Positions 16,010 through 63,060 of a stretch of DNA of 64,000 bases are shown in pieces (position 1 is the first letter of the stretch; each line of letters begins with the position of its first letter). This DNA comes from Norana najaformis (lineage: Eukaryota; Annelida; Clitellata; Crassiclitellata; Hormogastridae), in NCBI GenBank assembly GCA_964023275.1, contig OZ029918.1, positions 19,386,361 to 19,450,360 of the forward strand, written 5' to 3'. A program made the position numbers and the translations under genes. Below the pieces are notes generated by a model. That model saw only the letters and a program-made list of their open reading frames with translations, ran no database searches and was not told the DNA's origin.

Positions 16010-16179
16010 CGTAATCGTAGTCATAAATTTGTAAAGCGCCTCTTCAAGGTAGCCTCATCAGAGGCGCTCCCTGCCCATCCCAGAACTGGGGAATAATACG
16101 GTCTTCAAGCGCTTATGGAAGAGAGAGGGGGAGAGGGAGAGACGCTCCCATCGAAGGTCGGCAGGTAGCCATAGTTATG
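16010..16179 (-). mobile_element. 3' end of LINE family B (separated from its body)
   Basis: The reverse complement aligns with the 3' end of the + LINE-B copy at 22740-22890: CCGACC, the CT-rich run, TTGAAGACCGT, TATTCCCCA, GGGAGCGCCTCTGATGAG and CGCTTTA. It continues the minus-strand LINE-B body that stops at 19112, so LINE A (16180-19108) was inserted between the two parts. Confidence 0.75.
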
Positions 16180-16467
16180 CTCACAATGGATCACCTGGTC
16201 TACAGTTTGCTTCATGGAATGTGCCCTCACTTTCAGACAAATTTGCCTATGTCTCAGACTGAACAGGAATCTCATATGGATCTGTTGGTGATTACCGAGA
16301 GTTGACGTATTGGCTCGGATGATGTTGCAGTTCTCCGGGCTGCACCTCCGGGTTTTTCCATCTTTTACCGGCCAAGGGCCTCTGGTCTTGGAGGACAGTC
16401 AACCTGTGGTGGTGGAATTGTTGTTTAGTATCATTCAGCTCCGCGTATCTCTTTAATACACCTTGAC

Positions 16468-17151
16468 ATGGAATTAACTACCTTTGAGGCTCTGTGTCTT
16501 AGCATTCCCACTACACATGGTTCTGTTACTGTTTTAGCCGTCTACAGACCTGGCTCTACAGCTCTTACCAGTACATTTTTTGAAGAGTTTGCTTCTGTTC
16601 TTGAAAGCATTGCCACTAGAAATAGTCAACTTGTCATCCTCGGTGACTTCAATATTCACCTTGAGAAACCGTCTCTTCCTTCCACAGAGCGTCTTCTTGA
16701 TTTAATGAATCAATTTGGCCTGTATCAACATATTAAAGAACCTACACACCTTCACGGAGGCATCTTGGACTTAGTTATTACTCGTGATGACTGCTCTCTT
16801 CACGACATCCGAATTCATCCACCTGTCGCTTCGGATCATGCATTGATCGAATTTGGACTTCCTCATCTTCATCTGCTCCCTATTCACACGTTACGTTTTA
16901 TGCGGGGATGGATATCATTGAATCGGCAGGAGTTTGCAGAGGTGCTCCGCAGAACTCCTCTTTGTGCTGATCCCCGTACACATGATGTCTTGTCCATTGA
17001 TGAACTATTCAACTTATACTTGACTACTATGACTGATCTTTTGGATAAGATACTTCCTCCGCGGTTCGTCAAATCCAGGCATCGTCCTCTCGCTGCCTGG
17101 TTCGATGGTGACTGTCGTCGACTTTGCAGGCAGACACGTTGTTTGGAGTGA
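16468..17151 (+). pseudogene. LINE-A endonuclease domain, truncated
   Basis: The frame shows the apurinic-like endonuclease (APE) signature NSQLVILGDFNIHLEKPS and the active-site block HPPVASDHALIEFGLPH. The N-terminal catalytic block with the expected VITESWH is present upstream at about 16285-16310 but in a frame broken by stops. The ATG at 16468 is simply the first Met in the open stretch, not a native start. The frame ends at a TGA where copy 2 reads CGA-like coding sequence (FCRTRDP), so the domain is dead in this copy. Confidence 0.8.
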
Positions 17152-17312
17152 CATTTCCGTCGTACAAGGGACCCTATCCATCGCTCGGAATGGATCGCAC
17201 AACTGAGATCTCTCTATCGTCTCTACCGATGGAAGAAAGCTGAATACTGGGAGATGAAAGTCACCCATCACGAAAAGGACCAAAGCGACTTTGTTCATCT
17301 ATTTCAGGTCTA

Positions 17313-18017
17313 TTGGGTCGCTCTTCTTGTTCTTCTGGTATGCCATCATTCACCGCTAGTGACTTTCTTACCTTCCTAACCAAGAAGATTCAGGGTCATT
17401 GTACAGCTACTGCGGGGTCTCCGCTTCCGCAATTCTCCGTTACTGGATCCGTCTTCGATGCCTTTGGTCCGATATCGGAGTCGGAACTATGCCAGATTAT
17501 TCGATTATCTAATACGAAGTCATGTGAACTTGATCCTCTTCCACCATTTGTTATTTTGGACATTTTAGATGTTTTGTTACCATATCTATTGTTCATATTT
17601 AATAGATCTCTTCTGGAGGGGCATCTCCCTGAATCACAAAAGCGGGCTATCATTTTCCCATCTCTTAAAAAACCTAATCTTGATCCTAATGACCTTCATA
17701 ATTATCGCCTATTTCTTTCCAAAACTCTTGAGAGACTTGTTCCCCTTCAATTGTTACCCTGTGTTGAAGATTCAGGACTTATGCCTCCTGGTCAGTCTGG
17801 TTTTAGGCGTCATCACTCTGCTGGATCGGTTCTTTTGTCACTCCTTTCGGACATTTATTCAGCCATTGATCAGTCTCACATTACCCTCCTTGCACTCTAT
17901 GATGTCTCTGCTGCCTTTGACACGGTTGATCGTAATATTTTGTTACGCCGTCTTGAGCTATCTTTTGGCCTCTATGGTGCTCCTCTTCACTGGTTTCTTT
18001 CTTATCTTAGCGGTTGA
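17313..18017 (+). pseudogene. LINE-A reverse transcriptase, first half
   Basis: The 234-codon frame holds LKKPNLDPNDLHNYRLFLSK, SGFRRHHSAGSVLLSLLSDI and VSAAFDTVDRNILLRRLELS, the fingers and first palm blocks of a CR1/L2-like RT. The usual RPISNL after NYR is missing, leaving NYR joined to LFLSK, which looks like an in-frame deletion. The frame stops at TGA after LSYLSG. The remaining RT blocks resume at 18024. Copy 2 shares both the deletion and the stop. Confidence 0.8.
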
Positions 18018-18023
18018 ACACAG

Positions 18024-18551
18024 ATGGTTATTCTCGGAGACTCCCATACATCCTGGGTTAAAGTTGATATTGGTGTTCCCCAGGGCTTGGTTCTTGATCA
18101 TCTTTTATACATTTTGTATACTGCTGATATCCCTTCCCTCTTTACTAAACACTTGGCTGTTGGTCATTTGTATGCGGATGACGTCCAGGCTTTTGTTCAG
18201 GGACTTCCATCTGCGCAGCTTGCTCTTGTTGGTAAGATTGATACCCTGACTCATGATATTCAACATTGGATGTCCTGCAATCGTCTTTGCCTTAATCCTG
18301 CTAAGACTCAGTTGATCTGGTTTGGTTCTAAATACCCTCTCGCTCAGATTGACTACTCTTGCTTATCTGAAGCTTTCCCCTATTTTATGTTTTCGTCTAG
18401 TGTTTGTAACCTGGGCTTTATACTTGACTGTAACCTTATCTTCGCAAACCATGTCTCTAGTTTTGACTCGGTCTTGTTACTATCAATTAAGGTGCTTAAG
18501 AGTTATTCGTCGTTCTGTTTCTTCCTCTGTCTTTATTACTGTGATTCATAA
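18024..18551 (+). pseudogene. LINE-A reverse transcriptase, palm with YADD
   Basis: The frame continues the RT directly after the in-frame TGA: WVKVDIGVPQGLVLDHLLYI and then HLYADDVQAFVQGLPSAQLA, which supplies the catalytic YADD. NPAKTQLIWFGSKYPLAQID follows and then the C-terminal block, which loses frame near 18540. The Met at 18024 is probably internal to the ancestral protein. Confidence 0.8.
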
Positions 18552-19111
18552 CATGATCTGCTGTTGCATTGATTACTGAAACTCTGAACTTGCTGGTTTG
18601 CCTAAGTATCGGCTGTTCTTGCTTCAATCGGTACTAAATTCTGCGGCCAGGTTAATATGACATCTTTCCCGTTTCTCTCATATCTCAGATTACATCATTC
18701 AGCATCTTCATTGGCTCCCTATCCTCTCTTGAATTCAGTTTAAACTATTGGTAATTACTCTGGTAATTAGAGCTTGCATGGTCAGGCTCCAAAATATCTT
18801 TGTGATCTAATTTGGCCTCCACACTCTAGTACCTCATCCCGTCACGTTCTCTAGATCGTCTGGATCTATTTGTTCCTCGTGTTAGGTCCTCATTTGCTTA
18901 GCAGAGGGCTTTTGCTGTTATTGGCCCATCTCTGTGGAATGAACTTCCGCTATAGTTTCTTGCATGGGTCACTGTTGGTGATAGAGATCAGTAAGCTCGT
19001 TGTTTAAAGACGTTCTTATTTCCCAGGGGCTCTCATGCTGGAAGCGCCTCTGAGTAGTTTGTTCTGTAAGAAGTGCTGTATAAGTTATCAAATACAATAC
19101 AATACAATAAG

Positions 19112-29689: not shown

Positions 29690-30235
29690 ACAACGATCTA
29701 AGTTTCTTCAGTTCACTATGACTTGCAATGAACCTCCATCATCCGATTTCAGCATTAATCTCGACAGCATTAATCTTTGCTCAACCCGCTCTTCTTCTGC
29801 CCTAACACTTCTCCACCTTCCCGTTACCTCATCCTTAAAATTTGGTAATCGCTCCATAGCCATAGCTGCCCCACCACTCAGGAATAAACCCCCCCCGGAA
29901 CTGCGACAGTTTTCTGATCCATCATACAAACTCATCGATGCTCCACCACTTGCAATTTCTGCATCGGCCTTTTACTCAAAGCTGAAAACATTCCTCTTTC
30001 ACAGATCCTATCCTGACACCCCTTCTTCATCTTATCTCTCTCTCCTCTCCAACCCCAAACACCAAACCCATAGCTGCCATGCTGTCTCTCCGTCTGACTT
30101 TTGGATCTTGACCTGGAACCAAACCCTTTTGCCTATCGCTATTGTTTTGACTGAGTGCCTGTGAATAAGCTGGTCCCCACAACGTGGCTTTCGTTGGGCA
30201 CTGTAGAAATTTCGGAATTATGATTACTTCGATCA
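29690..30235 (+). mobile_element. CR1/L2-like LINE 3' end
   Basis: The + frame 29649-30164 includes HLPVTSSLKFGNRSIAIAAP, PLRNKPPPELRQFSDPSYKL and PLAISASAFYSKLKTFLFHR, the standard C-terminus of a CR1/L2-type ORF2. The usual W of LWN is R here. The non-coding 3' end (CTTTCGTTGGGCACTGTAGA, then GATTA repeats) recurs at 31645-31700. Confidence 0.8.
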
Positions 30236-31621: not shown

Positions 31622-31700
31622 CACTATATTGTGAATAAGCTGGTTTCCGCAACTTAGCTTTCGTTGGGCACTGTAGAAATCTTGAGATTACGATTACGAT
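31622..31700 (+). mobile_element. Short LINE 3' tail
   Basis: Matches the 3' end at 30160-30225 (GAATAAGCTGGT, CTTTCGTTGGGCACTGTAGA) and ends in GATTACGATTACGA. It is an extremely 5'-truncated copy of about 75 bp. Confidence 0.7.
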
Positions 31701-32356: not shown

Positions 32357-32531
32357 CTTGGGCGAGATAGACAGGACTGAACAAGTAGCAGATTTTCCCA
32401 TTTGACCCCTAACTGTTCCATTTACAAGCGTCTGTGGCGGACCAGCCCCTGATGCACCATTTTTGAAATTTTTCTAACTGCTTTTGGATAAGCTGTTTTG
32501 ATGTGCTAGTTGAACAGACCAGGCCTGCATG

Positions 32532-35103
32532 CAATGTTCCCTCTAAGGTTTGCTGGTTTGTGTGCAAAATCATAAACTCGTGTGCAAAACTTTACAGTGT
32601 CAAATTTTTTTGTGCAAAAATTTTGCGGCAGAAATAAAACCATCAAGACAGAAGAATAATTTTAAAGAAACTGGTTTTTATTAGTGAATAATTTTATTAT
32701 CATTATTTATGTCTTACTAGTCATCAGATATCAGCTGTAGATACAATTCGTCGTCCTTTGCAGCTCTTCCAGAAAGAATAAACTTCGTCCAAATTAACTG
32801 TCTGTCCTGATGTTAAATAAAGTTTGATCCTGATGAGGTTATCCAGGTGGTCGACTTCTAAACGATTTCTGGTCTTTGTTTTAATCTGATTCATCAAACT
32901 AAACCCTCTCTCACAATCAGCACTGGACGCCTGGAAGGTAGCACAAATGTCCAACAGCTGAGATAAGTCAGTAAACTGCTCCTGCTGCCTTATATAACCA
33001 ATCATGTCTTCAAAATTCTTTAGTGCACCTGTTGCCAACTTCTCACTAACAATTAATTTAAAGTCCACATACTGAGCAATCAAATTCTTCTTAAAAACCG
33101 GTTCTGGCTTGTTTAGCAAAGTGCTATATCTTGCTGCCAATATTTCAAGTTTGTCTGATCCAAATGAGAAATTCTTCAAATTTTCAGAAGCAGCAAAGGA
33201 ATCTTTATCAAAAACAGACCATTCACCGAGTTCATCATCAGGAAATCTACTGCTAAAGTGATCACAAACCCGTTCTATAAAACGGACCACGGCAGTTGTG
33301 CCAACAGGAGATGCATATGATGTCATTAAGTTATTGACTTCTTCTGAGAAGTGAATGGTGTCACCAAGATACTGCGATCGAAGTTTCATTATTTTTGCTT
33401 TGGTAAACTGGAACGCCTCTACAGTTGTCAGGTTACTTCTCTGAAGACGTCGACACAATTCTGCCAGTTCTCCTAGCACGTCATTCAGAATAGTGATGGC
33501 AACACGATACTCGGGTTTGGTTAACTTATCTAAGCAGTATTTATGGACAGGGTCGTTGTCTTCTTCAACCTGTTCCCTGCAGTACTGAATCAACATATCA
33601 TAGTTCCTCACTAAGGCTCTCACTGTGAAATCTTTAGAAAGCCACCTGACTTCATTTAGTGGCCTGAATGAAACTGAATCATGTTCTGCTGCCTGGCAAA
33701 GTTCCTGAAACTTTGATTTCTTCACAGAAGACCGACTGAATATAGTGTAGACTGTTCGTAATAGGGTTTCAATGTCTTTCATTAAAGAGACATGTTTCCA
33801 TGCGTCATCAAGTCCTAAATCCTCTCTATGTGCAACACAGTGCTGCTCAAGCAAATGTGGGATAGATCGTCGAAGTTGTGCAGCAACACCATTATACTTT
33901 CCAAGCATTACAGAAGCCCCGTCTGATGTAAACATTACCATTTTGCCCAAGTCAAGATTGTTCTGTTGGTAAAATTGTGTAATGGCCGCTACAATAGCTA
34001 TACTGGTACGTTCTGTCAGCTTTAGAATCCCAGCAAACATAGTACAGTATGTTGTATCCTCTGCTTTTCTAAATTTCACATAAAGAATTAACATTTTGCT
34101 CACGGAAATGTCTGTGCTTTCATCGATTATGAGAGTGTGGAAAGATGATCTGCGCCAATCATTTAACATTTCCTTTTGTATCACAGAATTTATGCATTCC
34201 ATAAATTCAAAAGCATAATTTTTGCTTCTCCAAGTTTCCGGAATTTTAACATATTTTTCAATGTGATTATGGATCTCCTGAACTGACAGCATCGAGGAAT
34301 TTAATTTTATGGCAAGGAGAACGTTATCGATTAGAATTTTTACTTCATCACCGTCGGCTGATTTTCTTTCAGACAACTCAATTCTGTTCTCTCTGTCTTC
34401 ATGGGTTTCACTCAACAAGGTCCTGATTGTTCCCCGACGCTGACTGCGTAACGTATCAACAGATTTTACGTGAACTTTTTGCAGCAAATGACGTTTCAAA
34501 TAGTCCAGTTTCCATTCATCCCATTGCTTTCCGAAAGCCAAATCGCAGTGGGCATTCGCTCGCTTGCAGACGGCGCAGACAACTTCACAGTTCTCAGGAT
34601 TGTACTTAAAAATATCTCCCAGAATTGTGCGCTGCTTACCGGATGAATCTGGCATGTCGGCTTGTACATATTCCTGCAGCCACTCTTCCTTAAATCTTAA
34701 ACAGACCTTCTTCGCATGTTTATCGTTTCCGCTTTCTTCAAAACCGCGTTTCGACATTTTACTAACAATAGGTATCGCTTTACAGAAACAATTTATTATG
34801 TAAATGTAAATTATTTTATAATTGTGATCGACTTCCCTCACTGCGAATCTCCACGAAAAGAACAGGAAACGGAAGTCAATACTGATAGGTGACATGCGCA
34901 AACTGGCGAAGCGGTAAAAGAAACTTTTATAGCACTATCATCGAGGTCTTACAGTCTCAATGCAGACCTTATTACAATTTGTTACATGAGCAAAATAAAA
35001 AATTTATATAACTGATTCTTTTGCGCGGCAGATGAAAACTTTTGCGCGGCAGGAATATTTCTTCTGCGCGGCCGTGCAATCGCGCAGCTTAGAGGGAACG
35101 TTG
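32532..35103 (-). mobile_element. Apparently whole hAT transposon
   Basis: The ends CAATGTTCCCTCTAAG and, on the other strand, CAACGTTCCCTCTAAG form a 16-bp terminal inverted repeat with one mismatch. The 8-bp CCTGCATG is duplicated on both sides (32524-32531 and 35104-35111). Subterminal GTGCAAAA and GCGCGGCA short repeats flank the gene. The inverted piggyBac copy at 39220-39245 shows the site without an insert. Length is 2572 bp, with one uninterrupted transposase gene, so it may be young. Confidence 0.93.
32724..34757 (-). CDS. hAT transposase (677 aa)
   Basis: Cut-and-paste DDE transposase of the hAT superfamily, close in pattern to the ZBED5/ZNF862/C17orf113-like group. From the Met at 34757 (MSKRGFEESGNDKHAKKVCL) it has, in order: a BED-like zinc finger near residues 60-110 (CEVVCAVC ... 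HLLQKVH), the first catalytic Asp in SFHTLIIDESTDIS, the second in FTSDGASVMLGKYNG, a CxxH motif (QHCVAHRE), an alpha-helical insertion, and the C-terminal dimerisation/RNase-H segment with the catalytic Glu (ASSADCERGFSLMNQ, RNRLEVDHLDNLIRIKL). The open frame extends 48 codons upstream, but those are hydrophobic and low complexity. The MSKRG start with AAA before the ATG fits family members better. No internal stop. The promoter would lie at 34760-35100. All hallmark residues are visible, so activity is plausible. Confidence 0.9.
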   Translation of the reverse strand: MSKRGFEESGNDKHAKKVCLRFKEEWLQEYVQADMPDSSGKQRTILGDIFKYNPENCEVVCAVCKRANAHCDLAFGKQWDEWKLDYLKRHLLQKVHVKSVDTLRSQRRGTIRTLLSETHEDRENRIELSERKSADGDEVKILIDNVLLAIKLNSSMLSVQEIHNHIEKYVKIPETWRSKNYAFEFMECINSVIQKEMLNDWRRSSFHTLIIDESTDISVSKMLILYVKFRKAEDTTYCTMFAGILKLTERTSIAIVAAITQFYQQNNLDLGKMVMFTSDGASVMLGKYNGVAAQLRRSIPHLLEQHCVAHREDLGLDDAWKHVSLMKDIETLLRTVYTIFSRSSVKKSKFQELCQAAEHDSVSFRPLNEVRWLSKDFTVRALVRNYDMLIQYCREQVEEDNDPVHKYCLDKLTKPEYRVAITILNDVLGELAELCRRLQRSNLTTVEAFQFTKAKIMKLRSQYLGDTIHFSEEVNNLMTSYASPVGTTAVVRFIERVCDHFSSRFPDDELGEWSVFDKDSFAASENLKNFSFGSDKLEILAARYSTLLNKPEPVFKKNLIAQYVDFKLIVSEKLATGALKNFEDMIGYIRQQEQFTDLSQLLDICATFQASSADCERGFSLMNQIKTKTRNRLEVDHLDNLIRIKLYLTSGQTVNLDEVYSFWKSCKGRRIVSTADI

Positions 35104-35679
35104 CCTGCATGGTGAGCAGAGTAGGTCAAATGCACAGAAGGCAGGTAAACCCCACAGAATAAAATGGAAACCTACTTCTCCTCTAGCATCTTATGTTTTA
35201 GAGAACAAGATCAAGAATCCCAAAGGCTGCCCCAAGAAGACTCAATATGAATGTGAAGCATGTAAAGTTGCTTTGCGCAAAGTTTTATGCTTCAACATTT
35301 GCAACGAGCAAAATCAGATAGTGGTTCTGTGGAGTGTAAGGAAGGTAAGCAATATAGCACATCGATACAACTGTTAAATTTCCATTCTAAATTGTCGTCT
35401 TAGAACTGTTCAGTCCAGTCTATTGAGAAAGAGGAGTCGATTCAGGAGGCTTCATCCATCTTCAAGGTGACCATCCAGTGCACTCAGGCATTCATAAAAA
35501 TGGCCCTTTTGAGAGCTACCAAATATTTGAAAAGGAAACAAATGTCAGTGTGTTTGCCTCTCTGTGTGCTTGGCTTATTGTAATGTTACTGTTGTTGTCC
35601 TGTTGGTGTGCATGCTGCAGTGTTTTTGATGTCGTGGTTGTATTACTATGTATGTGTTTGGGAGGTGATAGGGTGAGTA

Positions 35680-37798: not shown

Positions 37799-39866
37799 CC
37801 CAATGCTTACGAGAGAATTATTTCGGCCTTGTCCCTGACGACGAGCGATTTTACCGTAAAACGCCCTTTTAATTAGTTTTCAACTTTTGATATCTCAGTC
37901 AGTTCTTGACCTACAGAACTGAGGTCAGTGTCGTTCTTTAGCATTTTATCTCCTCTTCCCATTCCTCTGTCTAGTTTTGATGCAAAAATTTTGGGCCACC
38001 CAAAGTGACCCCAAACTGTACCCACCTTATATTTTTTTACTTTTTTCATGTTCAAGTCCCTATAGAAAATTTTTTTCGCTGACAACATATGTAGTGTCTG
38101 CACAAAAACTGTGCAGAAATAAATAACGGACAAAACCCTAAAGCAATTTTGAAAATATTTTTAAGAAAATACCTGAAAAGTAAGAAATTTTTAACTTATC
38201 AGCTCTTGGTCACTTTTGACATACAGGCTTGTGGGTAACATCATTCTTTAGCATTTGATTACCTCTTTCCATCCTTCTTTCTGGTTTTTGTTGCAAAAAT
38301 TGATGTACAAAGTTGACCCAAACTGTACCCTACTCATTTTTTTACTTTTGCTTGTTCGAGCCCCTATAGAAATAAATACTAGACAAAACCCAAAAGAAAT
38401 TTTGCAAATATTTTCATAAATGAAGGAAATACAGTATTTTTAGTACGTAGACCGTAGTCTTAAAAATCAAAGGATATAGTATAAGAAAATGCCTGAAAAG
38501 TAAGAAATTTGTAACTTACCAGATTTTTTACATTTAGACTTGAGGTTAACATTATTCTTTAGCATTATATCTCCTCTTTCAATCCTTCTTTCCAGTTTTT
38601 GATAGAAAATTTTTGGGGTACTCAAAGTTGCCTACCCACCCCACCACCTCCCAAACACATGCAATACAACCACAATATCAAAAACACTGCAGCATGTACA
38701 ACCACAGGGCAACAACAGAAGCATTATGACAAGCCTGGCACATAGAGAGGCACACAGCCTGACATTTCCTTTTCAAATATTTGGTGGCTCTGAAAAGAGC
38801 TGTTTTGTTGAATGCTTGAGTGTGCTGGATCGATAGTGGATGGTCACCTTGAAGACGGCTGAAGCTTCCTGGATCAACTCCTCTTTCTCAACGGACTGGA
38901 CTAAGCAGTTCTGAGAAGACAATTTAGAATATAAATTTGAACAGTTGTTTTGATGTACTATACTGCTTACCTTCTTTATACACCACAGGCATTTATTTAG
39001 TACCACGGCACTGGTTCATGAAACCACTATCTGATTTTGCTCGTGGTAAATGTAGAAGCATCTCACTTTGCACAAAGCAATTTTGCGTGCTTCACATTCA
39101 TATTGTGTATTCTTGGGGCAGTCTTGGGAGGCTTGATCTTATTCTCTGAACATAAATGCAAGAGAAGTAGGGTTCCATTTTGTTCTGGGGAGTTTACCTG
39201 CCGGCTGTGCACCTGACCTACTCTGCTCAGCATACAGATTGGTCTGTTCAGCTAGCACAAACTTATCTAAAAACAGTGAGAAAAGTTTTAAAATGGTGCA
39301 CCACAGATGCCTGTAAATGGAACAGTTGGGGTGAAACTGGAAACTCTGGTATCTCTTCAGTCTAGTCAGTCTTGCCCAAGTCATCAGCTTCCAATCTGCC
39401 TGGCCCAGTTTTCACATTCTGATAGCATGTGAACTTAATCTGATAGCATGTGAACTTGGTGTCGATGTCAGAATGTTCTTCAGCCAAAGCCACTTCATCC
39501 TTCTCATTGGATGCACCAGACAGTTTTCATTGTCAGATGAGTCGAAACTGTCATCATCTGATGCCATTCATCAAGCATTTGCCAAATTTTGCCGTATGTA
39601 AGTCCATGCTGCAATGCCATATTGGGTTATTTAAATGTAGGATGCAACCTATTAATTTTCATGTTTATGACCCAATTCTAAAAATATCTTCCACTTATTT
39701 CTGTGGTTAATTATATTATCTTGGCCTAAATGATCTAGGGTTAAAAAAATACAGCATCTGTGACAGACTGAGACCCGTATAGATAATAGTACATGCGCAC
39801 TACCTTTTACTGCATGCTTGTCATCGCCTCTGTTGTACACTCCAGTGCATACTCATCTGTATTGGG
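37799..39866 (-). mobile_element. PiggyBac-like element copy 2, inverted
   Basis: The right boundary TTAA is at 39867-39870. The left boundary is TTAG (37795-37798), read as a mutated TTAA. On the minus strand the 5' end CCCAATACAGATG parallels copy 1, the N-terminal region lies at about 39480-39700, the Cys-block remnant near 39060-39110, and three tandem units at 37865-38640. About 2.07 kb. No catalytic core. It is in inverted orientation to 31876-36273, with NOA1 exon 4 between them. Confidence 0.78.
37865..38640 (-). repeat. Three tandem units of about 270-300 bp in piggyBac copy 2
   Basis: Each unit carries CATTCTTTAGCATTT-like, CTCCTCTT/TTTCC, CCTTCTTTC-(C/T)-GTTTTTG and CCCCTATAGAA segments. 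The units begin at about 37865, 38205 and 38515, the last partial. Copy 1 has two. Confidence 0.7.
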
Positions 39867-46899: not shown

Positions 46900-49420
46900 T
46901 ACTCTGAGGTTATGGTTGCGTGTATGGCAGTCTGTATATGAGTGAAGTGGTAGGGTCATTCCGTGTCAGTTTTAGCATATGTTCTCCACCTCAGCATCTC
47001 AAATTTTGATCATTTGGCCTATATGTAGATAAATATATATCATGAAGGTCTGAATCGTTTTATACCTTATACCAGTTTATGAAATATTAGGTTTACTACA
47101 CACATGAGGTTGCCCGATTTTCAGTGCCACAGCAAATTACATGTTTTTACAATATGTTAGCTAGGAGTTGAGATGGAAAGGTTTTGGAAGTTAACTGAAG
47201 AAGCTGGCTGAGAATTTCCAGAATTATGAAAAGTTAAAGGAACAGTTGTTGAGAAGATTCAGATTAACTGAAGGTGGTTATAGAAAGAAATTTAAGCAAA
47301 GTCATATAGAGGAAGAAGAAACTCTATCACAGTTTGTGAACAGAGTCTGGTGTTACCTGAAACAATGGCTTCAGATGGCAGGATTTGAAGATAGTTTTGG
47401 GGGACTGGAAACTTTTTTGCTGAAGGACCAGTTCTTTATAATGTGTCCCAATGAACTGAGAACTCGTGAACTTTATAACATGTCCCAATGAATTTTCATT
47501 AAGGAAAGAGGTAAACTTGGACTGAGTGAGATGTAGAAACTGAGGGTAATAAGTGGACTCTTAAATCAAAGCCTGAGGAAGTAGGGCTCAGAGATGTTCA
47601 GAAAGAACACAGTAATAAAAACAAGGAAAAGTTTAGGGGCCCTTTTTACAAATAGAGGAGAGATGAAAAGAATTATCAACACAAGTCAGGTTTAAAAAAT
47701 TAATGAAATTTTGGAAGCAGACAGAGAACACGACTCTGGAGAGGGATGAAGATTAACCTGTTAGGGATGCAGATGGTCATAGGAAGTCCAACTGTCCAAA
47801 AAGGGATAAAGGTGCCAAACCACATACAGTGTTGTCAGTTAGCAGAGAAGAGAGTTCAGAAGAGTATATGGAGTGCAAAGGTAATGCAAGGTTGATAGAT
47901 GAGAGATGTGAAAGGGGTCTATTGTGGTAGTGTTGTGATGTCTGGGTATTGTATGGGACCAGATGGGAAAGGAACAGAATTGGTCTACAGACGATGCAAA
48001 ATGAATACATAAGTGAAGTATTAGTGGATGGACCGAGAGTGAGATGCTTGGTGCGATTCAAGTGCAACTTACTGTGTAGTGAAAGAAAATTTGGTTAGAT
48101 CTCCACAGTTTACAGGGCAGAAATGTAATCTGTACATTTGCTGATAGCTCAAAGAAGAAATTTCCAACAGCTTACATAAATGTTAAGAGTAAATATTACA
48201 CAAGGTATGTTGACGCTGTTCTGATGAGAAATCCAATTCAAGAAGTACGTGATCATAATGGTAAGAAAAGTTTAGGTAAAAGAGGCCTATTGAAAAGTGA
48301 ACAAGAGAGTGACACTGATACAACAGTTGTGTACCTAATGTATCAGGCAGTAAAACGACTCAAGCTTGTTGTTATGGAGATAGGACATGTCGTCATGAAT
48401 GTCACAAATAAAGCGGCCAATATGAAATACAGTGAGCCAAAAGCAGGTCAAGGAGAGGTATTGGCTGGATGTGAAACACGAAAATCAGACACAAATCAAG
48501 AAGATTGAAAGGAAAGAAAGACCCTTGAAATTGAAGAAATTGCCAGATTTGAATATCTCAACAGAAGAGATGGTAAATTGCAGAGAGAAGATGAGACACT
48601 GACAAAGTGTTGGAAACTGATGGATCAGTGTGAAGATGAGAACTGAGATGAAACGAAGGTTCTGTGTAAGCCAAGAAAAGAATAATTGTGTAATAAATGT
48701 AAGCAGGACATTAAACAATCTGTGTTGAGCAGTATTGTATGCCAAAGGTTGAATGAGGAACAGTTGAGAAATGCTAAAACCGATGATGTGTCATAAATAA
48801 TACTAAATATAGATGTGAGACCGATTGTGTTGATAGTCTAATATTGACACCTGTATTAAATCTGGAAAATAGTACAGCAGAAGCGAAAGTGCGAGACCAT
48901 GTAGACGGATGGCAGAGCCAGTCTTCAACACCGAGGGAGCAACCAGAGTTGAACTGTACTTCTGGAGAGCTTACAGAATTATTAAGAGAACAGAGTGGAG
49001 CAAAGTGCAAAAAAATGGCTAGAGTTAAGAAAAAGGATATTACTTCTGTGGAGGCAAGTAGTGATGTTTGTGAAATGGGTACAAGACATGTGTTGTGGTG
49101 AGTGAACAGAGGAATTCTAAAGTGGAAAGGGTGAATGAATGTGACATAGACCATGTGTTACTGGATCCTGGAGGGTTCATGGAGAATGTACCTCATATAA
49201 AGGGGAAAAGAAAGTTTGATGGACAAAAAGCAGTGCCATGCCGTCATAAGTTGATATAGATTTTGGCATTGGGGAAGAGGTAAGAAGGTTGAGGATGCCA
49301 TGGTGACATGAAGACATAGTTTGAGATGTGGGGTGGAAAGGAATGAGATGGATGGCTGATTACCTAAGTAGAGGCATAGACTAAGACTAAGTAATGTAGT
49401 ATATGCAGTGATTAGTTTGT
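46900..49420 (+). mobile_element. Ty3/Gypsy-like LTR retrotransposon fossil, broken
   Basis: A decayed internal region with, in order, a Gag-like segment (47220-47500), a zinc-knuckle-like basic part (about 47770-47820), a protease-like stretch (about 48015-48120) and a short motif of the kind found after RNase H (about 49325-49375). I did not recognise a reverse transcriptase or integrase core, and no pair of LTRs could be defined, so both borders are approximate. Broken, with well over ten breaks, hence old. A second fragment lies at 62812-63060. Confidence 0.6.
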
Positions 49421-53327: not shown

Positions 53328-54578
53328 ATGGAACGTATCAGTTACACGTCTGATCAACTTAATACAAGATCATTTGTCCTGCGACCATCTTGTACACTAA
53401 GAAAGAGACTGTTCAAACTTCACATCTGGTGCCCAGCTGTAAATCGCATTTCCACCTCCTCCAAAGATAATGTTATGGACTCTGAAACTCCTATTTCTGC
53501 TCCACTGAAGAAACTTATTGTTAATAACAAGAAACTACAAAGCCATGCCTGTGTTCACAATGGATCACCTGGTCTACGGTTTGCTTCGTGGAATGCGCTC
53601 TCACTTTCGGACAAATATGCCTATGTCTCGGAGACTATACAGGAGTCTCATATGGATTCATTGGTGATAACCGAGAGCTGGCATATTGGCTCGGATGATG
53701 TTGCAGTGCTCCGGGCTACACCCCCGGGTTTTTCCATCTTCGACCGGCCAAGAGCCTCTGGTCTTGGAGGTCAGTCAACCCGTGGTGGTGGAATTGTTGT
53801 TTATTATCGTTTGGCTCTGCGTACCTCTTTAATACAGCTCAACATGGATTTAACTACCTTTGAAGCTCTATGCCTTAGCATTGCCACTACACATGGTTCT
53901 GTTACTGTTTTAGCCGTCTACAGACCTGGCTCTACAGCTCTTACCAGTACATTTTTTGAAGAGTTTGCCTCTGTTCTTGAAAGCATTGCCACTAGAAATA
54001 GTCAACTTGTCATCCTCGGTGACTTCAATATTCACCTTGAGAAACCGTCTCTTCCTTCCACAGAGCGTCTTCTTGATTTAATGAATCAATTTGGCCTGTG
54101 TCAACATATTAAAGAACCTACACACCTTCACGGAGGCATCTTGGACTTAGTTATTACTCGTGATGACTGCTCTCTTCACGACATCCGAATTCATCCACCT
54201 GTCGCTTCGGATCATGCATTGATCGAATTTGGACTTCCTCATCTTCATCTGCTCCCTATTCACACTTTGCGTCATATACGAGGATGGAGATCATTGAATC
54301 GGCAGGAGTTTGCAGAGGCCCTCCGCAGAACTCTTCTTTGTGCTGATCCCCGTACACATTATGTCTTGTCGATTGATGAACTATTCAACTTATACTCGAC
54401 TACTATGACTGATCTCTTGGATAAGTTACTTCCTCTGCGGTTCGTCGAATCCAGGCATCGTCCTCTCGCTGTCTGGTTCGATGGTGACTGTCGTCGACTT
54501 CGCAGGCAGACGTGTTGTTTGGAGCGACGTTTCTGTCGTACAAGGGACCCTGTACGTCACTCGGAATGGATCGCTTAA
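53328..54578 (+). CDS. LINE-A endonuclease ORF (416 aa), nearly intact
   Basis: The N-terminal 65 residues are basic and unassigned (FVLRPSCTLRKRLFKLHIWC). The APE-like endonuclease then runs from about residue 80: LRFASWNALSLSDKYAYVSE, SLVITESWHIGSDDVAVLRA (catalytic Glu in TESWH), VLAVYRPGSTALTSTF, LVILGDFNIHLEKPS (Asp/Asn), DLVITRDD and PPVASDHALIEF (catalytic Asp-His). It stops at TAA after SEWIA, where copy 1 reads CAA, so the link to the RT frame (54630) is lost in this copy. The Met at 53328 has no obvious competitor and lies just after the leader. Cuts DNA at target for reverse transcription (family knowledge). Confidence 0.8.
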   Translation: MERISYTSDQLNTRSFVLRPSCTLRKRLFKLHIWCPAVNRISTSSKDNVMDSETPISAPLKKLIVNNKKLQSHACVHNGSPGLRFASWNALSLSDKYAYVSETIQESHMDSLVITESWHIGSDDVAVLRATPPGFSIFDRPRASGLGGQSTRGGGIVVYYRLALRTSLIQLNMDLTTFEALCLSIATTHGSVTVLAVYRPGSTALTSTFFEEFASVLESIATRNSQLVILGDFNIHLEKPSLPSTERLLDLMNQFGLCQHIKEPTHLHGGILDLVITRDDCSLHDIRIHPPVASDHALIEFGLPHLHLLPIHTLRHIRGWRSLNRQEFAEALRRTLLCADPRTHYVLSIDELFNLYSTTMTDLLDKLLPLRFVESRHRPLAVWFDGDCRRLRRQTCCLERRFCRTRDPVRHSEWIA

Positions 54579-54629
54579 CTGAGATCTCTCCATCGTCGAT
54601 ACCGACAGAAGGAAGCTGAATACTGGGAG

Positions 54630-55625
54630 ATGAAAGTCACCCGTCACAAAAAAGACCCAAAGCTTCAATGGTCATCTATTTCGGGTCTAGAGGGTCGCTT
54701 TTCTCGTTCGTCTGGTACGCCGTCATTCACTGCTAGTGACTTTCTTACCTTCCAAACTGAGAAGATTCAGGGTCTTTGTGCAGCTACTGTGGGGTCTCCG
54801 CCTCCGCAGTTCTCCGTTACTGGATCCATCTTCGATGCCTTTGGTCCGATATCGGAGTCGGAACTATGCCAGATTATTTGGTTATCTAATACAAAGTCAT
54901 GTGAACTTGATCCTCTTCCTCCATTTGTTGTTTTGGACATTTTAGATGTTTTGTTACCATATCTGTTGTTCATATTTAATAGATCTCTTCTGGAGGGGCA
55001 TCTCCCTGAATCACAAAAGCGGGCTATCATTTTCCCATCTCTTAAAAAACCTAATCTTGATCCTAATGACCTTCATAATTATCGCCTATTTCTTTCCAAA
55101 ACTCTTGAGAGACTTGTTCCCCTTCAATTGTTACCCTGTGTTGAAGATTCAGGACTTATGCCTCCTGGTCAGTCTGGTTTTAGGCGTCATCACTCTGCTG
55201 GATCGGTTCTTTGTCACTCCTTTCGGACATTTATTCAGCCATTGATCAGTCTCACATTACCCTCCTTGCACTCTATGATGTCTCTGCTGCCTTTGACACG
55301 GTTGATCATAATATTTTGTTACGCCGTCTTGAGCTATCTTTTGGCCTCTATGGTGCTCCTCTTCACTGGTTTCTTTCTTATCTTAGCGGTTGAACACAGA
55401 TGGTTATTCTCGGAGACTCCCATACATCCTGGGTTAAAGTTGATATTGGTGTTCCCCAGGGCTTGGTCCTTGATCATCTTTTATACATTTTGTATACTGC
55501 TGATATCCCTTCCCTCTTTACTAAACACTTGGCTGTTGGTCATTTGTATGCGGATGACGTCCAGGCTTTTGTTCAGGGACTTCCATCTGCGCAGCTTGCT
55601 CTTGTTGGTAAGATTGATACCCTGA
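54630..55625 (+). pseudogene. LINE-A reverse transcriptase, copy 2
   Basis: The frame carries PSFTASDFLTFQTEKIQGLC, LLEGHLPESQKRAIIFPSLK, LDPNDLHNYRLFLSKTLERL and SGFRRHHSAGSVL, then shifts frame at about 55211 where one T is missing relative to copy 1. The correct RT continues at 55211-55393 (VSAAFDTVDHNILLRRLELS) and, after the TGA shared with copy 1, at 55400-55927 (GVPQGLVLDHLLYILYTADI, HLYADDVQAFVQG). Not functional as it stands. Confidence 0.8.
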
Positions 55626-56438
55626 CTCATGATATTCAACATTGGATGTCCTGCAATCGTCTTTGCCTTAATCCTGCTAAGACTCAGTTGATCTGGTTTG
55701 GTTCTAAATACCCTCTCGCTCAGATTGACTACTCTTGCTTATCTGAAGCTTTCCCCTATTTTATGTTTTCGTCTAGTGTTTGTAACCTGGGCTTTATACT
55801 TGACTGTAACCTTATCTTCGCAAACCATGTCTCTAGTTTTGACTCGGTCTTGTTACTATCAATTAAGGCGCTTAAGAGTTATTCGTCGTTCTGTTTCTTC
55901 CTCTGTCTTTATTACTGTGATTCATAACATGATCTGCTGTTGCATTGATTACTGAAACTCTGTACTTGCTGGTTTGCCTAAGTATCGGCTGTCCTTGCTT
56001 CAATCGGTACTAAATTCTGCGGCCAGGTTAATATGACATCTTTCCCGTTTCTCTCATATCTCAGATTACATCATTCAGCATCTTCATTGGCTCCCTATCC
56101 TCTCTTGAATTCAGTTTAAACTATTGGTAATTACTCTGGTAACACTGGTCAACATAGAAATCGTTACTGACTGGAAAAGGCCCTAATGTGTAGCATCTTG
56201 GTGTGCTGAATACGAATATAACCATAAAATTTTTTTATTGGCTCTCGTTTTGAAAATATTTCATATAGTTCATTTTTTATGTTTCACCATGTAAATTTAT
56301 GCAGTAGGACTGCGACAATATCCTAAATAAGTCTAGAATGATGTAATATTCCACCTCATTGCATAATCCCATCATGGACACATCATGCACAGTTGATTAC
56401 GTCATTTTCTGATGCAATGTAAAACTACAGCCAGTCGG

Positions 56439-56479
56439 CTGCTGACGTAAGATGACGTCAGCAGTGTACTATATAAAGC
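56439..56479 (+). promoter_or_regulatory. CRE-like palindrome plus TATA box
   Basis: CTGCTGACGT at 56439-56448 is the exact reverse complement of ACGTCAGCAG at 56455-56464, spaced by 6 bp, so two TGACGT(A/C)A ATF/CREB-like sites face each other. CTATATAAAGC follows at 56469-56479. The ATG of the 563-aa gene is 114 bp downstream of the TATA box, as expected for an element with its own RNA polymerase II promoter. Confidence 0.65.
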
Positions 56480-56592
56480 GAGTCGGAACGTTTGAGCATT
56501 TACAATATTACAGACTTTGTGCGAGACAGTTTAAGTTACTGTTTTATAAAACTATTATTACTTTATCCATGTAGATACAATACAGAACAGTA

Positions 56593-58284
56593 ATGCCTCG
56601 GAAGTGCGTAAATACTGTGGACAACTTTTGTTACATTTGTGGGGAAGTGACATTTGCCAACCAGAAGAAAAGTATCACTTATCAAGTCAAGAAGGCATAT
56701 CATGCTTACTTCGAATGCAAGGTTGGTGACCAAGACAAGCCATGGGCCCCGCATATATGCTGTGCTACATGTACAACACAGCTTTCACAGTGGTTGAATG
56801 GCAAAAGACCATCAATGCCGTTTGCAGTTCCCATGGTGTGGAGAGAGCAAAGCAACCACGTAGATGACTGTTACTTCTGCTTGGTTCCTCCTCTTTCCGG
56901 TGGAATAACGAAGCAAAAGAAGTCGACAATAGTCTACCCAAACATTCCGTCAGCATTGAGACCAGTTCCACATGGTGATGGACTTCCTATTCCAGAACCT
57001 CCAGCAGAATATATTTTCCTTGATTCATCTGATGAGGACAAGGGTGAGCCGACATGTTCTTCTCCTGGTCCGTCAGCGTGCAGTGATCCCGATTTTCACT
57101 GTGGTGCATCATCAACCCCACACAGAATAACACAGGAAGAACTAAATGACCTTGTTCGTGATTTGGACTTATCCAAAAACAAGGCAGAATTGCTAGGATC
57201 AAGACTCCAACAATGGAATCTTCTAGAAGAAGATGTCACAATTACTTCATATAGAAAGCGCCATCAGCAGTTGGAACCTTTCTTTATGAAGGAAGGTAAT
57301 CTGGTATTCTGTTCCAATATTGACGACCTCATGAATGCCTTACAGATCACTCATGACCCACAAGAATGGAGACTCTTTGTAGACTCTTCAACACTGAGTC
57401 TTAAGGCTGTGCTTTTGCACAATGGAAACCGTCTTCCATCTATTCCATCAGCGCATGCTGTCCACATGAAAGAGACATACGATAACCTAAAACAGCTACT
57501 GCATTCCATTGACTATAACAGGTACAAATGGCACCTGTGTGGTGATTTGAAGGTAGTTGCCATTTTAATGGGACTGCAGCAAGGATATACAAAATATATG
57601 TGTTTCTTGTGTGAGTGGGATAGCCGAGCAAGAGAGTTGCACTACGTGCGGAAGGAATGGACTCCCAGACAAAACATGGCAGTTGGACAGAAGAATATCC
57701 AGCACCCAGCTCTGGTCGAGGCTCACGAAATCCTACTACCACCCCTTCACATCAAACTAGGTTTGGTGAAGAACTTCATGAAAGCCATGGACCGCACTTC
57801 ACCAGCTTTCCGATACCTGCATGAAAAATTCCCTCGACTCAGCGAAGCAAAGATTAAAGAGGGAGTTTTTGTGGGTCCTCAGATTAGAGAACTCTTCAAA
57901 GATGACCGCTTCAACAACTTGCTGGAGGGTGATGCGAAACAAGCATGGAATGCTTTTCATCTAGTGTCTACAGACTTTCTGGGGAATGTTAGGGCAGAAA
58001 ACTACAAGGAACTAGTAGAAGACATGCTCAAGCAGTACCAGAAATTTTGCTGCAATATGTCTCTGAAGATGCATTTCCTTCATTCCCATCTGGATTTCTT
58101 CCCTGACAACTGTGGTATGGTTAGTGACGAACATGGCGAACGTTTTCATCAAGATATCGCAACAATGGAGCAAAGGTACCAGGGAAAATGGTCCACTACA
58201 ATGTTGGCTGACTACTGCTGGACACTCCGCAGAGATGCTCCCGAACAGCTGTACAAGAGACAGGCAAAAAAATCTAAGAACTAG
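56593..58284 (+). CDS. 563-aa Cys-rich protein of an uncharacterised mobile family
   Basis: Intronless, no internal stop; the ATG at 56593 follows the TATA box by about 114 bp. Visible parts: an N-terminal zinc-finger-like array (residues 12-97: FCYICGEVTF, FECKVGDQDKPWAPHICCAT, DDCYFCLVPP), a Pro/Ser/Asp-rich linker (about 110-180), EELNDLVRDLDLSKNKAELL, a core with RLFVDSSTLSLKAVLLHNGN, WHLCGDLKVVAILMGLQQGY and CFLCEWDSR, then LPPLHIKLGLVKNFMKAMD, an AKIKEGVFVGPQIRELF segment, HFLHSHLDFFPDNCG and SDEHGERFHQDIATMEQRYQ near the C-terminus. I recall near-identical architectures among unnamed multicopy proteins of many invertebrates. No functional name is known to me. The D ... D ... CxxC ... 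H ... E order could be an RNase-H-type transposase core with a zinc insertion; this is inference. Confidence 0.8.
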   Translation: MPRKCVNTVDNFCYICGEVTFANQKKSITYQVKKAYHAYFECKVGDQDKPWAPHICCATCTTQLSQWLNGKRPSMPFAVPMVWREQSNHVDDCYFCLVPPLSGGITKQKKSTIVYPNIPSALRPVPHGDGLPIPEPPAEYIFLDSSDEDKGEPTCSSPGPSACSDPDFHCGASSTPHRITQEELNDLVRDLDLSKNKAELLGSRLQQWNLLEEDVTITSYRKRHQQLEPFFMKEGNLVFCSNIDDLMNALQITHDPQEWRLFVDSSTLSLKAVLLHNGNRLPSIPSAHAVHMKETYDNLKQLLHSIDYNRYKWHLCGDLKVVAILMGLQQGYTKYMCFLCEWDSRARELHYVRKEWTPRQNMAVGQKNIQHPALVEAHEILLPPLHIKLGLVKNFMKAMDRTSPAFRYLHEKFPRLSEAKIKEGVFVGPQIRELFKDDRFNNLLEGDAKQAWNAFHLVSTDFLGNVRAENYKELVEDMLKQYQKFCCNMSLKMHFLHSHLDFFPDNCGMVSDEHGERFHQDIATMEQRYQGKWSTTMLADYCWTLRRDAPEQLYKRQAKKSKN

Positions 58285-58759
58285 TCTATGACCTGGTTTT
58301 TACAAATATTAACTGTAAGTGTATCACTATTGGCATGCATTGTGCGATATAAAATTACTTCATTTCAGATTCAGTTTAAACTATTGGTAATTACTCTGGT
58401 AATTAGAGCTTGCATGGTCAGGCTCCAAAATATCTTTGTGATCTTATTCGGCCTCCACACTCTAGTACCTCATCCCGTCCTTTACGTTCTTTAGATCGTC
58501 TGGATCTATTTGTTCCTCGTGTTAGGTCCTCATTTGCTTAGCAGAGGGCTTTTGCTGTTATTGGCCCATCTCTGTGGAATGAACTTCCGCTATAGTTTCT
58601 TGCATGGGTCACTGTTGGTGATAGAGATCAGTAAGCTCGTTGTTTAAAGACGTTCTTATTTCCCAGGGGCTTTCACGCTGGAAGCGCCACTGAGTAGTTT
58701 GTTCTGTAAGAAGCGCTATATAAGTTATCAAATACAAATACAAAATACAAATACAAAGC

Positions 58760-62090: not shown

Positions 62091-62811
62091 AACTTCTTAA
62101 GTGTGTGTTAATATTTAAGAGAGTAGGTAAGGAGTAAGATGCTTGAACACATTACTGCAAATTACTGGAGAAAACTGAAAATTTGTGCCAAATTTTAAGT
62201 TGTGGAGGCTTAGATGTAGCGATTCTCCTTTATTATGCACTAATTCTTATATAGTTGCATAATTAAGCAATGTGTATATATACAGTAGCAATAAGAGGCT
62301 ATGTGCAGTGTTGGCTTGTGTGTGGCTAGGGTATAAGCATTTCTATATATATATATATAAATAATAAAATGAATAGGTTGGCCAGCATTTAATTAAACTT
62401 ATATATCTTATTTAAACATAGTCAACATTGCTGAGTGATAATAATAAGATGATTATGGGAGAGAACTTTGCCCTGGTACTGACTGCGATGAAAAGCAGTG
62501 AACCAGCATATGGATTTTTGAAGTCAATGGTTGTATGCTGTGGTTGTCTGCTTCCCAAGATGATTGATGGTGAAAGGGCAATGAATTTGAGCTGGCAAAG
62601 TACAGTTCTGCGGAAGACAAACAAGGAGGTTGGATATCTCATCTTCATCTGCAAACTCCAAATCTAGTTGAACTGACTGAGATCAACAGTTTTATTCGAT
62701 CGTCGAAAAGATTTGTTAAAGAATGTAATGCAGAGTGAAGTCTCTGCATGTTTACTTTGAAAACAGGCTTCGAGTCATTTTAGCAAAGTGTCTTAGAGTA
62801 CAGACTGCCAT
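62091..62811. other. Unassigned sequence
   Basis: A TA microsatellite at 62345-62362. The 79-codon + frame at 62428-62667 has several Cys but no domain I recognise. No repeat ends. Confidence 0.35.
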
Positions 62812-63060
62812 ACAGTGAGCCAAAAGTATGTCAAGGAGAGATGTTGGCTGGATGTGAAACACGAAAATCAGACACAAATTAAGACGATTGAAAGGAAAGA
62901 AAGGCCCTTGAAATTGAAGAAATTGCCAGATTTGAATATCTCCACAGAAGAGATGATAAAATGCAGAGAGAAGATGAGACACTGACAAGGTGTTGGAAAC
63001 TGATGGATCAATGTAAAGATGAGAACTGAGATGAAATGAAGATGAGATGAGATGAACTGT
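62812..63060 (+). mobile_element. Second Ty3/Gypsy-like fossil fragment, broken
   Basis: Aligns closely by eye with 48428-48660 of the larger Gypsy-like fossil. Only about 250 bp, without any complete domain or LTR. Broken and old. Confidence 0.6.

Follow-up and report, generated by a model that had tools for sequence, protein, structure and literature searches.

A compact one-gene insertion with a 34-bp target duplication and an empty site in a LINE of Norana najaformis

The window, i.e., the whole 64-kb stretch of DNA that was analysed, contains two copies of a LINE, referred to here as LINE-A. The second copy is interrupted by a unit that carries a single gene and is flanked by exact direct repeats, and the first copy has the corresponding site in an empty state. 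The features that define the insertion and its target are the following:

16167-19107, + strand: LINE-A copy 1, uninterrupted (self-comparison of the window and alignment)
18733-18766, + strand: empty site in LINE-A copy 1, with the same 34 bp present once (unbroken homology)
53541-56142, + strand: LINE-A copy 2 left of the insert, the part matching copy 1, including the left 34-bp copy (self-comparison and alignment)
56109-56142, + strand: left copy of the 34-bp target duplication (exact repeat)
56143-58368, + strand: inserted unit of 2226 bp, lying between the exact 34-bp repeats and missing from LINE-A copy 1
58369-58402, + strand: right copy of the 34-bp target duplication (exact repeat)
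58369-58750, + strand: LINE-A copy 2 right of the insert, running into a AAATACAAATACA array at 58730-58757 (self-comparison)

The direct repeats around the insert are identical at all positions (34/34) and are spaced by 2226 bp. With the insert removed, the alignment of LINE-A copy 2 to copy 1 spans 2940 columns, of which 128 are mismatched (4.4%), and its five gap runs all lie away from the insertion point. As the 34 bp are present once in copy 1 and the alignment is gapless at that position, the insert is placed to the base, the duplication itself aside. The sequence-only reading, according to which the exact repeats and the empty site fix the borders, is thus confirmed. The pair was also compared with other exact direct repeats in the window with a minimum length of 14 bp and a spacing of 80-12000 bp, low complexity being excluded and the flanks being less than 50% alike. 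It is the longest of the 16 pairs obtained, the runner-up measuring 24 bp, and a chance repeat was rejected on that basis. This next longest pair (30187-30210 and 31657-31680, 1446 bp apart) was considered as a second such insertion, and is taken, from reading by eye rather than from an alignment, as a piece of a longer imperfect direct repeat. Besides these, the window contains a dispersed repeat pair (48427-48658 and 62810-63041) that is 94% identical over 232 bp.

LINE-A copy 2 has an endonuclease domain in an ORF at 53328-54578. When another LINE in the window is used as reference, three in-frame stops and one frame change are found to be common to both LINE-A copies, which indicates that LINE-A was copied from an already defective master. 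Presumably, this copying took place in trans. Copy 2 has one extra frame change that is absent from copy 1. The insert is located in the last part of the LINE-A reverse-transcriptase frame, in the same orientation. LINE-A ends in a microsatellite tail and the insert has none. The self-comparison of the window at E 1e-20 did not yield a third LINE-A copy over the insertion site, and a tblastn search of phages with a LINE-A reading frame gave no match.

Within the inserted unit, the following elements were recognized:

56143-56592, + strand: upstream segment of 450 bp, 35% GC, inside the insert (composition)
56453-56460, + strand: TGACGTCA, which we take to be an ATF/CREB-type site (motif scan)
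56470-56478, + strand: TATATAAAG, a TATA-like box (motif scan)
56593-58284, + strand: ORF of 563 aa, intact, intronless and without a recognized family (ORF list, database searches and shuffles)
58285-58368, + strand: 3' segment of 84 bp, 31% GC (sequence without AATAAA or tail)

The ORF (44% GC) covers 76% of the unit and is intact from end to end, in agreement with the earlier description of an intronless, uninterrupted gene of 563 aa. The longest open frame in the insert counts 569 codons, and none of 300 dinucleotide shuffles exceeded 177. The promoter-like region that had been claimed for the insert is found as well, in the form of TGACGTCA and TATATAAAG upstream of the ORF. This predicted module lies 310-336 bp inward of the left end, and 327 bp precede the TATA-like box. 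The ordered pair is unique in the window on both strands, TGACGTCA by itself occurring three times, and 20000 shuffles of the upstream segment reproduced it in 9 cases, an optimistic figure as the pair was chosen after reading.

The ends of the unit were described from the start as devoid of terminal inverted repeats, LTRs, poly(A) and microsatellite tail, and the end comparisons bear this out. Comparison of the outermost 60 bp on either side gave no shared run of 6 bp, whether inverted or direct, no LTRs are present, and neither poly(A) nor a microsatellite is found at the right border. A sense AATAAA is missing from the insert, and its one ATTAAA lies within the ORF. There is no LINE-like 3' end either, as similarity of the insert to LINE-A or to other window repeats does not rise above chance. 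Structured ends were rejected, since the 3' 84 nt (z 0.76) and the 5' 120 nt (z 1.53) do not fold more stably than shuffles; the 3' end of LINE-A gives z -0.50. A Pol III promoter was rejected too: the four sense B-box-like sites have two mismatches each, and none occurs in antisense. For the suggestion that the gene is multicopy, nothing speaks within the 64-kb window, in which the best other DNA match measures 21 bp (E 0.01) and the best other protein match has E 0.64.

The 563-aa protein does not match any Pfam family at E up to 10 when searched as a whole, transposase, integrase and nuclease families included. Searching Pfam with four fragments resulted in two single matches at chance level (E 0.13 and 0.14). 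The protein has no match in NCBIfam, PDB, phages or plasmids, and PHROGs returned one chance-level match (E 0.3). Each pattern scan of contigs relied on a single degenerate motif or on a small set of exact 8-residue patterns, which distant relatives would escape. Of the scans of viral contigs, three were without match and three gave 4, 15 and 1 matching stretches; on prokaryote genome contigs, one scan was without match and one gave 16 stretches. None of these stretches comes from a relative. Among the matches listed in a search of titles and abstract openings of open-licence literature, neither this protein nor a similarly built animal element with a 34-bp duplication is described. Three N-terminal CxxC pairs (C13/C16, C57/C60 and C93/C96) suggest zinc binding. 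D264, D318 and E513/E516 sit in strings that, in our reading, recall RNase-H-like transposases, and a hidden DDE core made up of D264, D318 and E513 or E516 might be imagined. AlphaFold2, run without alignment, reached a mean pLDDT of 37.9 for the whole protein and of 39.4 for residues 239-563. We assume that arthropods and fishes commonly have relatives of the protein, encoded by multicopy genes without introns.

The private change per LINE-A copy amounts to approximately 2.2%. For a neutral insertion as old as the LINE-A copy, the probability of an ORF without disabling change would be approximately 0.04, and that of an identical 34-bp pair approximately 0.22. The unit is probably younger than LINE-A copy 2, or under selection. 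Dating the insert from the decay of LINE-A is weakened by the stops that are common to both copies.

A hAT-type transposon in the same window (32532-35103, with an intact ORF of 723 aa) served as a control for the known element classes. Its hAT-like gene (32724-34895) matches DUF4371 and Dimer_Tnp_hAT in Pfam, of which only Dimer_Tnp_hAT is above the cut-off. The element has inverted repeats (11/12) at 32532 and 35103 and an exact 8-bp duplication, CCTGCATG (32524-32531 and 35104-35111). A diverged copy of the host repeat near 39240 on the - strand lacks the element, and the joined hAT flanks can be aligned to it across the insertion point. The end search that recovered this transposon asked for 10/12 inverted bases and 7/8 duplicated bases. 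A looser search of the insert (9/12, duplication not required) found nothing at its ends. The best inverted 12-mer pair in its outer 100 bp (10/12) is situated 82 bp (left) and 91 bp (right) inside, and was equalled by 13 of 60 random stretches. Cut-and-paste transposons produce short, fixed target duplications of 2-10 bp, and no animal transposase is known to us whose staggered cut reaches this width. A cut-and-paste (DDE) transposon was rejected for the insert in view of the missing inverted repeats and the 34-bp duplication. The insert resembles such elements in that it has a single gene, measures 2-3 kb and was moved as DNA, if our inference of a DNA step is right, but differs in lacking inverted repeats, a short duplication and a transposase match, all three of which the hAT element has. 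An LTR retrotransposon or endogenous retrovirus was rejected as the insert has no long terminal repeats. Helitrons leave no target duplication and have 5' TC and 3' CTRR ends; a Helitron was rejected because of the 34-bp duplication and the ends CA... and ...TTTCAG. Site-specific recombination on a shared core was likewise dismissed, the insert ends being no more similar to the 34 bp than shuffled sequence is (p 0.16 and 0.48).

The reading that we prefer, tentatively and with somewhat less than even confidence, is that a self-contained one-gene DNA unit entered the dead LINE-A copy via breaks 34 nt apart. Two nicks at that distance would have cut the already dead LINE-A copy. The unit, consisting of a promoter-bearing upstream region, the intronless 563-aa gene and a short 3' segment, would then have been inserted at the break, and fill-in of the overhangs would have given rise to the 34-bp duplication. 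Such a unit would move repeatedly, most simply helped by its own cysteine-rich protein, a help at which we can only guess. The position of the promoter-like module well inside the unit points to DNA, and not processed mRNA, as the inserted form. Insertion at the DNA level would account both for the module travelling with the gene and for the missing tail. Also in its favour are the exact duplication with its intact empty site, the tight construction of the unit, the lack of a sense AATAAA and of a LINE-A 3' end at the right border, a target outside the L1 rule and the full RTE rule, and a unit that is probably young or else under selection. Against it stand the single copy with end points seen once, the lack of a match to transposases, integrases or nucleases, and a promoter module that was chosen post hoc and is predicted from sequence. 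That the unit represents an unrecognized class of animal mobile elements, with a promoter, a single intronless gene that encodes a cysteine-rich protein, no terminal repeats and a dedicated wide-stagger cut duplicating approximately 34 bp, is a doubtful further step, and rather improbable as matters stand.

The strongest rival is tailless retroposition in trans, a possible account that we nevertheless consider unlikely. A LINE reverse transcriptase would have copied a long RNA begun upstream of the TATA-like box, and internal priming would have left the copy tailless between 34-bp repeats. Target-primed reverse transcription typically yields target duplications that vary in length, and the gene of the insert is intronless. 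At the right border, the insert ends in ATTTCAG and the target begins with ATTCAG, which hints weakly at priming by sequence match. The exact 34 bp also lie within the ranges screened in published studies, 8-35 nt and 10-49 nt, a range fit in which a single copy cannot show length variation. Tailless retropseudogenes were screened for TSDs of 8-35 nt, with targets complementary to the RNA (PMC5322556), and 5'-truncated L1 copies in HeLa assays are mentioned as having TSDs of extreme length. The insert is like these retropseudogenes in having no tail and a perfect target duplication inside the 8-35 nt range; it differs in that those derive from RNAs, mostly small, whereas the insert has a promoter-like module inside its left end and misfits the L1 target rule (PMC5322556).

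Several points argue against such retroposition. The RNA would have to begin 327 bp or further ahead of the TGACGTCA-TATA module, the only one present. TSDs of full-length L1 peak at 14-16 bp, in a study that collected only 5-30 bp (PMC2912911, PMC13295347 and PMC3296678 jointly provide the data on L1 TSDs, the RTE rule and Drosophila filler DNA). The target site reads CTCTTGA/ATTCAG in sense and GCTCTAA/TTACCAG in antisense. It does not fit the L1 rule (TT/AAAA) in either orientation, and follows the RTE rule (Tn-TA) only in part: read in sense, it has the first base A, but not the T before it or the stretch of T (rules as published, including PMC5322556). In therians and a lizard, tailless copies have been linked to a relaxed activity of L1, and none was found in chicken or platypus (PMC5322556); no L1 is shown here. 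In addition, the microsatellite tail of LINE-A is missing from the insert, and the insert ends come no closer to the duplication than shuffled sequence does (p 0.16 and 0.48, as given above). A plain mRNA retrocopy, the second part of the earlier proposal of a new mobile element or an mRNA-like retrocopy, is disfavoured by the 327 bp upstream of the TATA-like box together with the missing tail. A copy of an mRNA begun approximately 30 bp past the TATA box would not contain the module. As tailless retrocopies exist, the lack of a tail is not fatal to a LINE-mediated retrocopy.

An improbable second rival, which should nonetheless be weighed, is a one-off DNA event. Either a staggered double-strand break was repaired with filler DNA that came from a different locus, or an excised circle was inserted, a whole gene being carried along by chance. 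In Arabidopsis, flanking repeats of more than 30 bp were found for 18 of 126 moved genes and for 2 of 102 unmoved ones, in 13 of the 18 cases the repeat also stood at the empty orthologous site, and one row of the moved-gene table has a 34-bp direct repeat (PMC2869330). The insert shares with these cases the movement of a whole gene and a flanking repeat of more than 30 bp that stands once at the empty site, in LINE-A copy 1. It differs from them in that the Arabidopsis repeat is in several cases also present at the donor and the genes mostly belong to known host families, whereas the gene of the insert is without known family (PMC2869330). Filler DNA with flanking direct repeats has been described in Drosophila introns as well, although not above control (19/77 vs. 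26/100). On the other side, a fragment taken at random would seldom consist of just a promoter, an intact gene and 84 bp, and circle insertion by homology wants the 34 bp or something similar at the donor, of which the insert's own ends show no sign.

A secondary empty site, i.e., loss of the unit from copy 1 by recombination between the 34-bp repeats after it had belonged to the LINE-A master, is very improbable: both copies do come from one defective master, with common stops and frame change, and a preintegration-like state through recombination between long TSDs is discussed for HERV-K (PMC5488345), but the unit breaks LINE-A near the end of the reverse-transcriptase frame, brings its own promoter-like module, and its exact loss from copy 1 is less simple than a single gain in copy 2.

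The sequence-only argument that a 34-bp duplication is foreign to all common DNA transposons has less force than it seems to have, as long flanking repeats have been published for moved Arabidopsis genes and TSDs of 8-35 nt were screened for retroposed copies. There are HERV-K insertions with TSDs of 111 and 250 bp (PMC5488345). They are comparable to the insert in their abnormally long target duplication, revealed by the preintegration site, but they have LTRs and the insert has none. Long duplications per se are already known from HERV-K, moved genes and tailless retrocopies, and 34 bp alone is not new. What is unusual is the combination of a compact, intact single gene with a predicted promoter, no known family and none of the known end structures. 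With one copy in the window, the unit is not callable a new class. If its end points recur, it would be a mobile element of a kind that repeat finders tend to miss, as these seek inverted repeats, LTRs or tails, and the 563-aa protein might represent a novel type of integration enzyme. With its borders set by an exact empty site within the window, the insertion allows a direct test of this question.

The borders of the insert are splice-site-like, with CTG/GTAA on the left (56136-56142) and ACTTCATTTCAG/ on the right (58357-58368). In principle, the insert may be removable by splicing from a LINE-A transcript, and the likeness of the borders may equally be due to chance.
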